In this document: positions 26,554-33,776 of the stretch, piece after piece
Layout of the letters: every line of letters starts with the position of its first letter
Numbering within the stretch: position 1 is the stretch's first letter
Assembly (NCBI GenBank): GCA_021735645.1
Contig: JAIPGP010000038.1
Location: 1-33,886 of the forward strand
Reading direction: 5' to 3'
Length of the DNA stretch: 33,886 nt
Source of the DNA: Candidatus Cloacimonadota bacterium
Lineage (GTDB): Bacteria; Cloacimonadota; Cloacimonadia; Cloacimonadales; TCS61
Made by a program: the position numbers and the translations under genes
Notes under the pieces: generated by a model
What the model was told of the DNA's origin: nothing
Database searches by the model: none
What the model saw: only the letters and a program-made list of their open reading frames with translations

Positions 26554-29496
26554 ATGAACAATATCGGGAAGTATTATAAACGCTTTAAGTTTGGGGAAGA
26601 CAATTTTCACAGGTTGATGAAACACAGGATCAGGACGATTCTTCTGGTTTCTTCCTTTTACGATGCCTTTATATTTGAACAGGATGGCAGATTGAGCGAG
26701 CAGGTTTTTGGAGAATACCGGCAGTTGAATTTGAGCACTGCCCCACGAATTATCTCAGTTCCTACGGGTGATGAAGCCCTGAAAATTCTGGAGGATTTTA
26801 ACTTTGATCTGGTGATAACCATGATGCGGATCGGAACACTGAGCCCCTGGGAATTTGCCGATAAAATCAAAGCACAGAAACCTGATATGCCAGTATTACT
26901 GCTTATAAATGTGAAAAATGATTTGATTCTAATTGATAAAACTTCTGAGGAAATGCAGAATATAGATGATGTGTTTTCCTGGAATGGTGATTCCACCCTG
27001 CTGCTGGCAATGGTGAAAGAAATTGAAGATAAATGGAATGTAGCAGATGACACCTATAATGGTCTGGTGCGAGTGATAATACTGGTGGAAGATTCCATTG
27101 AATACTATTCAAAGTTCCTGCCGGTATTTTATCAGCAGATTATGAAACAAACCCAGAAACTGATCAATACTGAGCTGGATGACGTGAATAAGCGGCTGCA
27201 AATGAGAGCCCGTCCCAAAGTTCTGCTTTGCCATGATTATGAAAGTGCTGTCGAATATTATGATAAATATAAGGAATTTGTGATCGGTGTTATCTCGGAT
27301 GTGAAATTTCCTCAGGAAAATGAATTAAATCCTTTGGCTGGATTCAATCTGATCAATTACATTAAACAGCATAACAGTACAATCCCGGTGTTACTGAACT
27401 CTTCTGAATCAGAAAATCAGCAACTGGCAAAAAAAATGGATATCACTTTTCTGAAAAAATACTCTAAAAACTACCTGGAGCAAGTCCGTCATTTCATAAA
27501 AAATAATCTTGGGTTTGGTGATTTTATCTTCAAAGATGAGGATGGGAATTATTATGGAAAAGCAGCTAACACTGCCAGCTTTGAAAAACAACTTCGTTTA
27601 ATCCCGGATAAATCTCTACTCTTTCATAGTCATCATAATCATTTCTCCGGCTGGCTGGCTGCCCATGGTGAATTTCTGGTAGCAAAACGCATCCGCTTTG
27701 TGAAAATAGAAGATTTTGACTCCACCTCGGCTATCAGGGATTTTCTGATCAATGCCTTCTGTGAGGTAAAAGAATTACGTCTGCGAGGCAAGATGGTGCG
27801 CTTTGATCCACAATATCTGGATATAGAAGATGTAGTGATCAGACTATCGGAAGGTTCTATGGGCGGAAAAGGAAGAGGTCTTGCCTTTTTGAATGCTCTT
27901 CTGGTTTCTATGAACTGGGAAAAGCATTATGCCGAACTGGATGTGAGAATCCCGCGTACATTTATTATCGGTACTAACGAATTTGATGATTTCTGTGAAG
28001 CACATAATCTGGAAGAGTTTATGGAAAAATCAGATGATAAGAGCTTGCAGAATTTCTTCCTGCAAAATCCACTTTCTGAAGATTTACGGGCAAATCTAAG
28101 GGAAATGCTGCAAAATGTTCATTACCCGCTGGCAGTACGGTCTTCGGGCTTATTAGAAGATTCTCAAAGTCAGCCTTTTGCCGGGGTGTATGAAACTTTT
28201 ATGCTGCCCAATAATCATCCAGACCTCGATGTTAGATTCTATCAACTGTGCACAGCAATAAAACTTGTCTATGCTTCTATCTTTAAGAAAGACGCCAGAA
28301 ACTATATAGAAGGCTTTAATTTTAAAGTGGAAGAAGAGAAAATGGCGATAATTATTCAACAGATTGTCGGCTCACAACAAGACAGGTATTTCTATCCCCA
28401 AATTTCTGGTGTTGCCCAATCATATAATTATTATCCAGTTTTCCAGATGCAGCACGAAGATGGAATAGCCAGCATCGTTGTAGGCATGGGGAAAGCGGTT
28501 GTAGATGGTTTGAGAACCTTTAAATTTTCACCTTCCTGGCCTCACATGAATATTTTGAGTCCAGAAGACCAGATTGGTGAAGCTCAACACAATTTTTATG
28601 CTATTGACCTCTCAAATAATGATTTTGACCTGACCAGCGGTGAAATGGCTACATATAAACAGATCGAGATTGATAAAGCAGGAGAATTCAAATGCCTGAA
28701 ATATGTGACTGGTTACTGGGACGCCTATCAGAAGAAATTCGTGGATGGAAAATTTGTCAAGGGAACCAGAGTGATCACTTTCAATAATATCCTTAAATAC
28801 AATAATTTCCCCTTTGCTGATGCTTTAAAGAAAATTCTCGAGATTGGGACAGCAGCTTTTGGCGTGCCAGTCGAAATTGAATTTGCCCTTGATCTGAATG
28901 CTCTATCGCTTGATAAGAAAGCCGTGCTTTATTTACTTCAAGTCAGACCTATGAACGTGAACCTGAACGTGCATACTCTTAGAAAAGAAAATATTGATTT
29001 CAAAAAATCATGGCTGTTTAGCGAAAAAGCGATGGGTAATGGGAAATATGATTTGCAGGATATCATCGTTATTGACCCCAAAAAATTCGTATCTACCAAA
29101 ACACTGGAAATGGTTTCTGAAATTGAGCAGTATAACAGCAGCTTTCGGGCGATAGATAAAAACTATATTCTCATAGGTCCCGGACGCTGGGGCAGTAGTG
29201 ACCGCTTTCTGGGAATTCCCGTGAAATGGAACCAGATCAATTATGCACGTATAATAGTAGAAACTACTATGGATAATTTCCGGATTGACTTCTCGCAAGG
29301 TACACATTTCTTTCACAATCTGATTGCCCAGAATACCGGATATATTTATCTGGATAAAGATGGTCAATTAGATTGGGACTGGCTTTTCTCCCAATATGTG
29401 ATAAAACGAGGTAAATACACTATTCATATCAGAACCAAAGAAAGTATTCAGGCAGAATTATGTGGGGTATCCGGATTAGCAGTAATTTACCGATAA
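26554..29496 (+). CDS. Receiver-receiver-PEP-synthase-type ATP-grasp protein
   Basis: 980 residues. Residues 27-160 fold like a response-regulator receiver but lack the acidic pair (SS at 33-34) and the phosphoacceptor Asp (about 89-90 reads TM). Residues 172-315 form a second receiver with ILVEDS (acidic pair near 179-180), candidate phosphoacceptor Asp249 in VISDV, Ser283-284 and Lys301-302, and an insertion after the first helix. A conserved linker (about 357-402) leads to a PPDK_N-like ATP-grasp domain (about 430-800): GGKGRGLAF, LAVRSSGLLEDSQSQPFAGVYETF and QVRPM. The phosphohistidine swivel and PEP-binding barrel of real PEP synthases are missing. The C-terminal 180 residues contain GPGRWGSSDRFLGIPV. 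The AAGGAG ribosome-binding site is strong. It is a family seen in Bacteroidota-type genomes; its substrate is unknown. Confidence 0.85.
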   Translation: MNNIGKYYKRFKFGEDNFHRLMKHRIRTILLVSSFYDAFIFEQDGRLSEQVFGEYRQLNLSTAPRIISVPTGDEALKILEDFNFDLVITMMRIGTLSPWEFADKIKAQKPDMPVLLLINVKNDLILIDKTSEEMQNIDDVFSWNGDSTLLLAMVKEIEDKWNVADDTYNGLVRVIILVEDSIEYYSKFLPVFYQQIMKQTQKLINTELDDVNKRLQMRARPKVLLCHDYESAVEYYDKYKEFVIGVISDVKFPQENELNPLAGFNLINYIKQHNSTIPVLLNSSESENQQLAKKMDITFLKKYSKNYLEQVRHFIKNNLGFGDFIFKDEDGNYYGKAANTASFEKQLRLIPDKSLLFHSHHNHFSGWLAAHGEFLVAKRIRFVKIEDFDSTSAIRDFLINAFCEVKELRLRGKMVRFDPQYLDIEDVVIRLSEGSMGGKGRGLAFLNALLVSMNWEKHYAELDVRIPRTFIIGTNEFDDFCEAHNLEEFMEKSDDKSLQNFFLQNPLSEDLRANLREMLQNVHYPLAVRSSGLLEDSQSQPFAGVYETFMLPNNHPDLDVRFYQLCTAIKLVYASIFKKDARNYIEGFNFKVEEEKMAIIIQQIVGSQQDRYFYPQISGVAQSYNYYPVFQMQHEDGIASIVVGMGKAVVDGLRTFKFSPSWPHMNILSPEDQIGEAQHNFYAIDLSNNDFDLTSGEMATYKQIEIDKAGEFKCLKYVTGYWDAYQKKFVDGKFVKGTRVITFNNILKYNNFPFADALKKILEIGTAAFGVPVEIEFALDLNALSLDKKAVLYLLQVRPMNVNLNVHTLRKENIDFKKSWLFSEKAMGNGKYDLQDIIVIDPKKFVSTKTLEMVSEIEQYNSSFRAIDKNYILIGPGRWGSSDRFLGIPVKWNQINYARIIVETTMDNFRIDFSQGTHFFHNLIAQNTGYIYLDKDGQLDWDWLFSQYVIKRGKYTIHIRTKESIQAELCGVSGLAVIYR

Positions 29497-29713
29497 ATTC
29501 TATATCGACTACCCAGTCTTCAAGAATATATTGCAATTGCTTGAAAATTAAAAAATATTCTTTTGCGTTAACTATTCACTCCAATGAATATTTAAATTGA
29601 CAATATTTTGCTAAACTGAGATGGAGTGATGAAATAGTTTGGGTTATGATATAGTGTGTTAATGTCGTAAATTATGGGTGAATTAATAACAAAAAAAGAC
29701 TTAGGAGAAAAAA

Positions 29714-32700
29714 ATGAAGAAACTTTTAGTACTTTGTATCATTATGATACTTAGCGTATCAGTATTTGCTGTCTGGGAAGTTGGAGACGTCGTAGAAGAT
29801 GACTACAGCTGGACAGACAATAACAACGAATACCACTCAATTCATGAGCTGACAGAAGCCGGAAAAGCGGTCTTATTGTTCTGGGGGACAACTGGCTGAG
29901 GTGGCTGTGTTGCGGCGGCGCCGCAATTAGCTACCTGGTGGGGAAATCAGAACCAGGATGAAGTATATGTAATTTGTGAAACTAATTGGAATAATGGCTT
30001 ACCTTACTCAGGAGAAATTGATCCCTATTACTGGGATTTTGGTAATGGATATGTACCATTCTTTGCTGTTGTAGGCGCATACAACATTCTGTATTATGGA
30101 GAGAACTCTGTAACAGCAGCGATGAACACCGTTCCTGAAGCTGTAGCATCGTTTAACAATATGGGAGTCACTGGTCCAGTGGCTGACCAGGTGATGTTCT
30201 TTGGTGATGAAGTCACTATTGATGTTTCGGGAGTCTTCGCCAGCCCTAATGGTGATGTTACCGTTACTCTTGAAGAAAACAGCAACCCAGCATTTGCGGA
30301 TGTGGTTCTTACCGGAGAGATATTAACAATTACTGCCCTGAATACAATGGGTCAAACTATGATCACCCTGATGGGAGATGATGGAGTGATGACAGCTACA
30401 GACGAATTCTATGTAACTGTTCTTGATCCTAATCCTAATACTGAGACTGTAGAATATGTTATTGAAGATACACCCGAACAGCAGAATTATCCAGGAAATC
30501 CTAATCCTTATGAAAATAGTTATGATGATCTGGATTGGATAGCAGTGGAAGTGCAGGAAGATGCTACTGTAATCAGCGTTCGCATTACCGGAGACCTGTT
30601 CAGTGATAATTACCCTGCCGAAGGATCACTATGGATAACCTCTCCAAGTGGAACATCTGTGATGATTGCAGACGGTTTTACCGGTGGAACACATGCTGTA
30701 GATATTGAAGCAGAAGGTTTTGCTGCTCAATCAGCTTTTGGTGAATGGATCATTTTTTTTGTTGATAGCGTTGGCGATGGTGGACATGGTTTATCTAACG
30801 GCACATTGATAATTGAAATAGCTGCCAGTGGCGCACCTGTGGTCACCCCTACAAACCTGGTTGCAGAAATTACCGATGATGACGTTCATCTTACCTGGGA
30901 ATATGAAGCTGGCGGTGGTGAAGCTGTTATACTCGCCTGGGATAATGGTGAAAATGATGATGCTATTGGTCTCACTAATGGTGGCAGCTTTCTGGTTGCC
31001 AGTCGCTGGACTCCTACTGAACTGGTTAATTATCATAATATGCCCATTAATATGATCAGCCTTTTTCCAAATGAAGCTGGCACTACTCTCACTCTTAAAA
31101 TATGGACTGGTGCAGATGCTGCTACTGAAGTATATTCCCAGGCAATGGATGACCTGGTGATGGGAGAATGGAATGAAGTAGTTCTTGATACTCCACATGT
31201 TATTGATGCCTCTGATGAACTCTGGTTCGGATATGCCTGTGATAATCAACCTGCTGGAACTTATCCTGCCGGCTGCGATGTTGGTCCTGCTGTTGCCGGT
31301 TTTGGCGATATGATCAGTATGGACGGAGTTGCCTGGAATACATTAAGTGGTTATGGACTGGATTATAACTGGAACCTGCAGGCAACTGCCGGTGGTCGTG
31401 CTATGCAGCGTCACAGCATACCTCAGGAAATTGAAGTTGCCAGATTGCATAATGATCTCTTCAGTCAGGCAAACCTGCATAACTCCACTCTGAGAGACCG
31501 TCTCCTGCTTGGATTTAAAGTTTATCGTGATGACGCAGAAATCTCTTATATCGAAGATATCGATGCTCGCATGTTTGATGATATGGATCTGGAAGACGGC
31601 ACTTATGAATACTACGTTACTGCTGTATATGACACTACTGAATCTAATCCGTCAAACACTGTTGAAGCAGTTATTAATACAAACCTTATCATGGACCCAC
31701 CTGTAGGACTGGAAGTTACTGAAAACGGACTGATGACCTGGATGGCTCCGGGATCTGGCATTGGCGGTATATTACTCGTTGATGATGATGGCAGTATTGA
31801 CCTTGATTTCACTGACACCGTGCCTTATTATGAAACTATACTGGATGCCAGTGGCTATGATTATGAAATATATGAAATCACCACTGCTGGTAATGATGGT
31901 CCTGATGCGGATTATATGGCTGATTTTGACCTGGTTATCTGGGAATGCGGAGAACAGTGGGCAAGTGCTCGCACTTTATCTGCTACAGACGAAGCTCAGT
32001 TAGGAATCTATCTTGATAATGGTGGCTACCTCGTACTATGTGCTCATGATTACCTTTGGGATCGCTACCCAAGTGCCGGCAATTTCAGTACTGGTCAATT
32101 CCCTTACGATTATCTGGGATTAGGCTCAGCTATTCAGGATGCCTTCACAGTTGGTGTTTCTCAAGGTGGACCGGAAACGGTCGATATCGTTGGAGCAGGT
32201 GCTACAGCTGGATTAACTGTTGGATTACAGGATATTTTCTCTGCAACACGTGATGGAGTTTATCTCGATTTTCTCACTCCAAATGCAATGGGTTCAGCTT
32301 ATTCTACTTATAATAACAATAATGTTGGCATTCAGACATCAAACACTATCTTCACAACCGCTGGCTGGGCTGGTTTGATTGATGGCACCAGTACTGTATT
32401 AGATTATGCTCTGGCATCATTCGACTACTTCGCGACCTGCGGTCGTCCTCTGGAAAACTATAATGTTTATCTTGATAATGTATTAGTAGATGATACTACT
32501 GATCTGCAATATCAATTGATGGACCTGGTTGCCGGAACTACCTATACAGCAGGAGTTAGCGCTGTTTACACTGATGGTGAATCTGATATAGTTGAAGTTG
32601 ATTTCGTTTATAATCCAAGTGCAACTGATGGTCAGATTCCAAATGTTAATGCCCTGATTGGTAATTATCCGAATCCCTTCAATCCCGAATGTAAGATAGC

Positions 32701-32920
32701 TTACGCTGTAGCACAGGAAGCTGAAGTTACTATCGCTGTCTATAATGTTCGCGGTCAGAAGATCTGCACCCTGGTTGATGGAATAATCGAAAGTGGAAAC
32801 CACGATGTGATATGGAATGGAACTGATGATAATGGCGTTAGTGTTTCTTCAGGAGTTTATTATTATAAGATGGACTCAGGAAAATTCACTTCTTCCAGGA
32901 AAATGGTTCTGATGAAATAA
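29714..32920 (+). CDS. Putative secreted selenoprotein: Sec-thioredoxin-like domain on a large multi-domain surface protein
   Basis: 1068 residues if the in-frame TGA at 29897-29899 is read as selenocysteine 62; otherwise a 61-residue stub. The downstream 932-codon stretch is in the same frame, with no stop between 29900 and 32917 and no ribosome-binding site at its first ATG (30122). Domains in order: signal peptide (1-19); thioredoxin-like fold (about 25-150) with FWGTTG-U-G-G-C-VAAAP and a cis-Pro candidate P115; Ig-like region (156-236); P-domain-like sandwich (246-370); fibronectin-III pieces; a second sandwich; a flavodoxin-like stretch (GGILLVDDDG, WECGEQWASA); FN3; and a C-terminal FlgD-like sorting domain (about 981-1068) with NYPNPFNP and NVRGQKI. 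AGGAG precedes the start. Alternative: a nonsense-mutated gene. Confidence 0.75.
29897..29935 (+). promoter_or_regulatory. Candidate bacterial SECIS hairpin with its UGA codon
   Basis: The UGA at 29897-29899 is followed directly by a hairpin. The lower stem is 29900-29907 with 29928-29935 (eight pairs, two of them G-U). A small internal bulge follows (T29908-G29909 against T29927). The upper stem is a perfect 7-bp TTGCGGC/GCCGCAA (29910-29916, 29920-29926) closed by a GGC loop (29917-29919). The apical loop begins 17 bases after the UGA and its first base is G, as in known bacterial SECIS elements. The codons used (four consecutive gcg/ccg) are unlike the AT-rich surroundings, which suggests selection on the RNA. 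Confidence 0.7.
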
Positions 32921-33113: not shown

Positions 33114-33776
33114 ATGGAAGATCATGAAAATAGTGGATTATTAACAAACTTATGGGAAAGGTATAATAAAATTGAAAAGAATTTACCTACACCAATCATA
33201 GAAATATATAATAAGTTACGTAATATAAGTTCCTTTTCAGATCGAGGTTTAGAAAAAAAACTACTTGATGTTTTTGAAGTTATACTGAAATTGGATACTT
33301 CCATTATGATTGCTAAGTATGTTGAAGATAAAGGATCTGTACCGAAAATTGACAATCAGATATCTCAATTAATCCATCCATCAACGGGTATATATAAAGC
33401 ATCATTAAGAGTTTTAGTAAATTTTTATAAAAAAAAGGCAAGTTCTGAAAATGAAAATCCTCCTTTCGTGGTAGATATAATAAACTTCTTATTTGATAAA
33501 ATTTCATCAGACTGTTTTCAGTGCCTGAGATTCATAACAAATAAATTAAATCTACCAAGACTCAAAGATAACGAAAACACTATTGATTTATTAATTGATA
33601 AATTAATCACTTACAGGAATAATTTTGCACATGGTGCTGATAAAAAAGATGACAGCTATGCAGAGCTAATGGCATCTCTATATATTGTAGTTATAGAATT
33701 GACAGAGAAATTTAGTCAAAGATTGTCATACGAATTGGTTTATATCGAAAATGACTATCCGTATAGCTCCGCATAA
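33114..33776 (+). CDS. HEPN-like protein of unknown function
   Basis: 220 residues, all-helical in appearance, with no signal peptide. The only motif I recognise is RNNFAHG at residues 168-174: Arg168-x4-His173 fits the Rx4-6H active site of HEPN-domain RNases, preceded by a DxLIxYRN helix typical of the fold. HEPN proteins often serve in toxin-antitoxin and anti-phage systems, but no partner gene is visible here. The gene is more AT-rich than its neighbours, has its own promoter and AAGGAG ribosome-binding site, and its last seven codons overlap a transposase fragment on the other strand. The C-terminus may therefore have been replaced by insertion-sequence DNA. Function is inference only. 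Confidence 0.7.
   Translation: MEDHENSGLLTNLWERYNKIEKNLPTPIIEIYNKLRNISSFSDRGLEKKLLDVFEVILKLDTSIMIAKYVEDKGSVPKIDNQISQLIHPSTGIYKASLRVLVNFYKKKASSENENPPFVVDIINFLFDKISSDCFQCLRFITNKLNLPRLKDNENTIDLLIDKLITYRNNFAHGADKKDDSYAELMASLYIVVIELTEKFSQRLSYELVYIENDYPYSSA

Follow-up and report, generated by a model that had tools for sequence, protein, structure and literature searches.

A gene with an in-frame TGA

The window, the 33,886-nucleotide stretch of Cloacimonadota DNA analyzed here as a whole, contains a frame from 29714 to 32920 in which TGA at codon 62 is the sole internal stop and TAA (32918 to 32920) is the terminal stop (Table 1). An earlier note on this DNA had described two open reading frames (ORFs) in one frame split by this TGA alone, which the frame confirms; U62, C65, and P115 likewise lie where it had placed them. 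Mechanical ORF calling returns 30122 to 32920, starting at ATG 30122. With this start, the active site would be lost along with the signal peptide and the larger part of the thioredoxin domain, and standard annotation would truncate the candidate selenoprotein gene at its in-frame TGA.

TABLE 1 Positions in the window of the candidate selenoprotein gene and its features
Feature	Position	Strand	Description or basis
AGGAG, Shine-Dalgarno-like	29703..29707	+	Read directly; 6 nt upstream of ATG
Predicted selenoprotein CDS	29714..32920	+	1068 residues if TGA 29897 is decoded as Sec
Predicted signal peptide, residues 1-19 (MKKLLVLCIIMILSVSVFA)	29714..29770	+	By eye from the sequence
Thioredoxin-like domain (TlpA/ResA-like), residues 19-156	29768..30181	+	AlphaFold, Foldseek
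UGA codon, predicted selenocysteine U62, first UxxC position	29897..29899	+	TGA in 37/38 homologues
Predicted SECIS hairpin	29899..29936	+	17 bp, one bulged U; z -4.4, covariation, bSECIS rules
Codon of predicted resolving Cys65 of UxxC	29906..29908	+	Invariant in Sec forms (alignments)
Conserved SECIS core GCGGCGGCGCCG	29912..29923	+	Nearly fixed across the family
Pro115 (cis-Pro of the thioredoxin fold)	30056..30058	+	Invariant; alignments and model
Fibronectin type III domain, residues 911-958	32444..32587	+	Pfam fn3
Type IX secretion (type A) C-terminal sorting domain, residues 985-1065	32666..32908	+	TIGR04183

Nearly all homologues whose 5' end is complete have an N terminus similar to the predicted signal peptide. 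The AlphaFold model of the domain that follows has a pLDDT of 93.7 and a pTM of 0.88, and Foldseek matched it to Bcp1 (E value, 7e-7) and a ResA-like oxidoreductase (E value, 4.5e-6; TM score, 0.74), its best solved relatives being Bcp1, ResA-like proteins, and extracellular thioredoxins. In the model, as in thioredoxins, the first long helix has Sec62 and Cys65 at its N terminus, and P115 directly precedes a strand. The APQL helix proposed in the earlier note is recovered as helix 45-59, directly after Sec44 in domain numbering, and its candidate cis-Pro, P115, corresponds to P97, immediately preceding a strand. The predicted structure is thus a thioredoxin fold with C/UxxC at the helix N terminus and a cis-Pro. 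No curated family model scored above its cutoff for the domain (Thioredoxin_7 fell below it), and no NCBIfam model matched it. The AhpC-TSA, Redoxin, and ResA profiles gave weak matches, those to AhpC-TSA and Redoxin recurring in 19 to 20 of 25 members.

Between the thioredoxin-like domain and the sorting tail, the protein also contains beta domains. The sorting domain model TIGR04183 scored 28.1 bits (cutoff, 23), and SprA, through which the type IX secretion system (T9SS) translocon was tested, is present in the host genome with 449 bits summed (cutoff, 200). The features of a T9SS cargo are found together: a signal peptide (recognized by eye), a sorting domain, and, as represented by SprA, a translocon.

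The neighbors of the gene in the window, among them a HEPN-like ORF and a gene for a PPDK_N-domain protein, are uninformative as to function, and no redox gene adjoins it there. The PPDK_N protein (26554 to 29496) has 980 residues; besides this domain, the ATP-binding one of pyruvate phosphate dikinase, it gave a weak match to response regulators. The HEPN-like ORF (33114 to 33776) has weak similarity to HEPN of the RiboL-PSP type and, from this similarity, may encode the toxin of a toxin-antitoxin pair.

A family found across Cloacimonadota

When 125 genomes of the phylum were searched with a profile reading through stops, 38 copies of the thioredoxin-like domain were recovered in 32 of them, a count from which weak matches in G018, G062, and G066 were excluded. 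Exactly one TGA is present in 37 of the copies, and 33 distinct nucleotide sequences carry it at the aligned codon; the one copy without TGA has Ser. The presence of TGA at codon 62 is not a matter of chance, since all but one of the 38 homologues have it at this codon. The earlier note had asked whether homologues carry Cys or TGA there and had named a plainly decayed frame in close ones as a refutation. The copies gave 37 TGA, 1 Ser, and 0 Cys, and the homologues are not decayed, with TGA held under strong constraint and the frame open on both sides of it. C65, AAP, GNG, and P115 are invariant among the aligned Sec forms. Given 37 conserved copies, a base error in sequencing is untenable and a pseudogene was rejected.

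No Cys orthologue was found by profile searches through stops in the 125 genomes; weak matches in G017, G018, and G066 were considered and rejected, being TlpA-type CxxC proteins. A pair of Sec and Cys homologues was accordingly not recovered, the CxxC proteins found being distant and of the TlpA type. Published methods use such a pair as a criterion in their searches, but Sec insertion does not require it.

In the copy without TGA (L042, G027 C160), Ser occupies both positions of the active site; its genome also contains a Sec copy (L027). It is nested within the Sec family in the tree, with the TlpA proteins far outside, the placement of long branches in this tree being unsure; it is a degenerate paralogue and likely a pseudo-enzyme. 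A divergent Sec copy (L032, G012 C110) has a very long branch and retains TGA, downstream of which lies a different hairpin, with an AGUGC loop.

The regions C terminal of the domain vary, comprising PKD and beta-helix domains (L059 and L066), carboxypeptidase regulatory-like domains (L021 and L026), or fn3 (the window protein), and each of these five proteins ends in a T9SS sorting tail. The host genome encodes a second Sec copy (L038, G000 C32:19808-20224), in which the UGGC thioredoxin domain is accompanied by a dockerin type I domain in place of the T9SS tail. By eye, the C terminus of L039 (G015 C62) resembles that of L038.

When 84,980 species genomes were scanned by pattern, matches were confined to records belonging to Cloacimonadota, the nearest relatives among named records being "Candidatus Stygibacter frigidus" and other "Candidatus Cloacimonadota." Phage records gave no match to the family. 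One record, JABMPU010000168.1 (L045), is titled Armatimonadetes bacterium, yet it is identical to a contig of G010, from the window's family, and the title is probably a mislabel.

Selenocysteine machinery and a SECIS-type hairpin

The host genome, a 3.77-Mb draft in 151 contigs (95% complete, 2% contamination; phylum Cloacimonadota), contains the full machinery for which the earlier note had proposed a search, namely tRNA-Sec, SelA, SelB, and SelD. The tRNA-Sec scored above the Rfam cutoff and was confirmed by ARAGORN, with anticodon TCA, and the profile scores were 319 bits for SelB, 545 bits for SelA, and 358 bits for SelD. A Cloacimonetes-type tRNA-Sec is mentioned in the literature (PMC5330540). 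That the machinery genes sit on contigs other than that of the window counts against the reading, though the pattern recurs in 31 genomes. In-frame TGA is also carried by the host SelD gene itself and by the gene for the α subunit of formate dehydrogenase (FdhA; TGA at the classical Sec site, ..CARL-U-HSSTVAGL), so that for at least two known families this organism very probably decodes UGA as Sec. A second SelB-like N-terminal fragment lies at a contig edge (L010, G000 C132:20-889; 182 bits), and the genome may have two SelB genes or include a strain variant.

SelA is present in 31 of the 32 domain-bearing genomes versus 30 of the 93 without the domain (Fisher P = 2.7e-11, phylogeny ignored), the single exception being 61% complete. 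At five loci (L054, L058, L062, L063, and L066), the Sec-thioredoxin gene is followed on the same strand by selA and selB, and in family f13 the domain lies about 2 to 3 kb from selA in seven of the eight genomes carrying it. The gene may there be cotranscribed with its own insertion machinery.

The RNA directly downstream of the UGA is predicted to form a hairpin with an 8-bp upper stem and a GGC triloop (29917 to 29919), 17 nt after the UGA. Folding of the 42 nt from the UGA gave -26.1 kcal/mol (z score, -4.4), and none of 5,000 synonymous redraws with amino acids kept and the codon usage of the window was as stable (mean, -13.3 kcal/mol; standard deviation, 3.0 kcal/mol). Codon choice within the motif departs from that downstream in the same genes: Ala is encoded by GCG in 88 of 90 cases versus 36 of 603 (6%), and Pro is encoded by CCG in 30 of 33 versus 60 of 418, counts that ignore relatedness. 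The core GCGGCGGCGCCG has one exact copy in the whole 3.77-Mb host genome. RNAalifold, applied to 32 sequences, favored a different 5-bp pairing, without covariation; instead, a direct test was made of the named apical stem. This 6-bp stem has 17 double-changed cells versus 7.6 in shuffles and surpasses every slid version in paired cells, double-changed cells, and covariation score.

Published rules for the bacterial SECIS (bSECIS) call for a loop of 3 to 9 nt, G within the first two loop positions, a distance of 16 to 37 nt from the UGA, and a stem of at least 4 bp (PMC13188914). Of 33 homologues, 30 have a hairpin that agrees with them, its loop lying 17 nt after the UGA; at that position, L028, L032, and L035 depart from the simple hairpin rules, and the Ser paralogue L042 has no such hairpin. 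Lacking TGA, Cys, and hairpin together, L042 serves, at the level of its sequence, as a natural control. A search of Rfam found nothing relevant at the TGA, and weak matches at the 3' end resemble low complexity.

Could the TGA be an ordinary stop, separating two genes or marking a pseudogene, with the main ORF beginning at ATG 30122? The ORF call agrees with this, as does the normal use of TGA as a terminator, for which the earlier note had named examples and which holds for 4 of the 20 listed coding sequences of the window (ends at 1481, 2739, 9109, and 10382). With TGA kept in 37 of 38 homologues in a frame open on both sides, fold residues invariant across it, and synonymous codons after it under selection, this explanation is highly improbable. 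We assign an equally slight chance to TGA being read as Trp, Gly, or Cys through a changed code or a suppressor tRNA. Codes with TGA reassigned do exist in other bacteria and speak for such a reading; it is rejected because TGA serves as a stop in other genes and because tRNA-Sec(UCA), SelA, SelB, and SelD are present, and a SECIS-type hairpin would be superfluous under it. The proposal of a selenoprotein made in the earlier note is thus strongly supported; to it are added the hairpin, the gene neighborhoods, and a whole family in which no Cys form was seen.

Proposed function and relation to known selenoproteins

In our judgment, this is very likely a genuine selenoprotein gene, representing a family of exported thiol/disulfide oxidoreductases that is new and depends on Sec. 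Considered separately, Sec insertion at codon 62 appears nearly certain from the sequence comparisons, and the role of exported disulfide oxidoreductase is likely. The conserved RNA and the machinery suggest that SelB with Sec-tRNA, guided by the hairpin after the UGA, inserts Sec at this codon. The signal peptide would export the product, and the C-terminal sorting domain would direct it to the cell surface through the type IX system; there, the TlpA/ResA-like domain would act as a thiol/disulfide oxidoreductase. From the fold and motif, Sec62 is the presumed attacking nucleophile and Cys65 the resolving thiol. The likeliest substrates would be disulfides of exported or surface proteins or a small oxidant.

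Gene neighborhoods suggest a source of electrons for one group. L050, L055, L057, L059, and L064 have a nearby cluster for DsbD (DsbD_TM plus thioredoxin), a CxxC-containing secreted protein, TlpA, and DUF6029, and part of the DsbD-TlpA-DUF6029 cluster is found at L053, L061, and L063. Electrons in this group would probably come from the adjoining DsbD-TlpA relay. A point against this route is that DsbD belongs to the periplasm, whereas the T9SS tail implies the outer surface. The conserved secreted protein encoded between DsbD and TlpA at L059 (1649 to 2752) includes the CxxC stretch CVNCPIVEEAL; it gave a weak match to DUF1223 and matched no known family.

The DsbD and TlpA neighbors, together with the weak AhpC-TSA and Redoxin matches and the peroxiredoxins Bcp1 and AhpE among the top Foldseek matches, would also fit a periplasmic selenoprotein, acting either as a reductase fed by TlpA/DsbD or in peroxide removal, with the tail as a mere anchor. 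This is the less likely function, given the type A sorting tail with SprA and the location of Sec, which occupies the CxxC site of TlpA together with a resolving Cys rather than a TxxU peroxiredoxin motif. Returning to the surface oxidoreductase, we consider it reasonably likely that the family is obligately Sec dependent, sorted to the surface, and confined to Cloacimonadota, with no Cys form, a near-fixed SECIS core, and a likely selA-selB operon partner in one family.

If this is correct, the protein would be among the first known selenoproteins exported by type IX secretion, and its dockerin-bearing paralogue would be among the first with a cohesin-binding type of module; selenocysteine would be placed both in a type IX cargo and in a dockerin-type protein. 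A Sec-dependent family is also a likely reason for part of a largely uncultivated phylum to retain the Sec machinery, and the highly conserved hairpin offers material for studying RNA recognition by SelB. Published selenoprotein searches rely on Sec/Cys pairs, and the authors of deep-Sep state that families lacking a Cys homologue may escape their own method (PMC12013277); the present family is a well-supported case of this blind spot.

The literature searched contained nothing on such proteins that links selenoproteins to Cloacimonadota, to type IX secretion, or to dockerin. The 2026 inventory of 119 prokaryotic selenoprotein families (PMC13188914) contains no match by name or architecture, and a sorting domain or dockerin occurs in none of its family descriptions; the groundwater MAG survey that it cites (its reference 66) could list the family. 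UxxC thioredoxin-fold selenoproteins are a kind already known, and the Cloacimonadota family, compared by name and architecture, is previously unlisted. Within the host, in-frame TGA is common to the window gene, SelD, and FdhA, and the SelD hairpin, with a GGG loop, has the same 17-nt spacing; SelD and FdhA are cytoplasmic metabolic enzymes, proteins unrelated to the surface-sorted candidate.

The prokaryotic UxxC thioredoxin-fold selenoproteins, among them the Prx-like thiol:disulfide oxidoreductase, thiol-disulfide isomerase-like, Redoxin, and HUIPC thioredoxin-like families (Table 1 of PMC13188914), share with the present family UxxC at the start of helix 1 and a bSECIS directly after the UGA. 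Nearly all of them have Cys homologues, whereas no Cys form was found among the 38 Cloacimonadota copies. The thioredoxin-fold selenoproteins that likewise came from analysis of TGA-containing ORFs in a single clade are small, belong to PF13192, and have Cys homologues. TlpA, including that of the DsbD-TlpA neighborhood, and ResA (PDB 4nmu and 1st9) have the same fold (TM score, about 0.6 to 0.74), CxxC site, and cis-Pro position, with weak sequence similarity; the Cloacimonadota family differs from them in having Sec for the first Cys, a GNGYVPFF block, and a multidomain architecture with a sorting tail.
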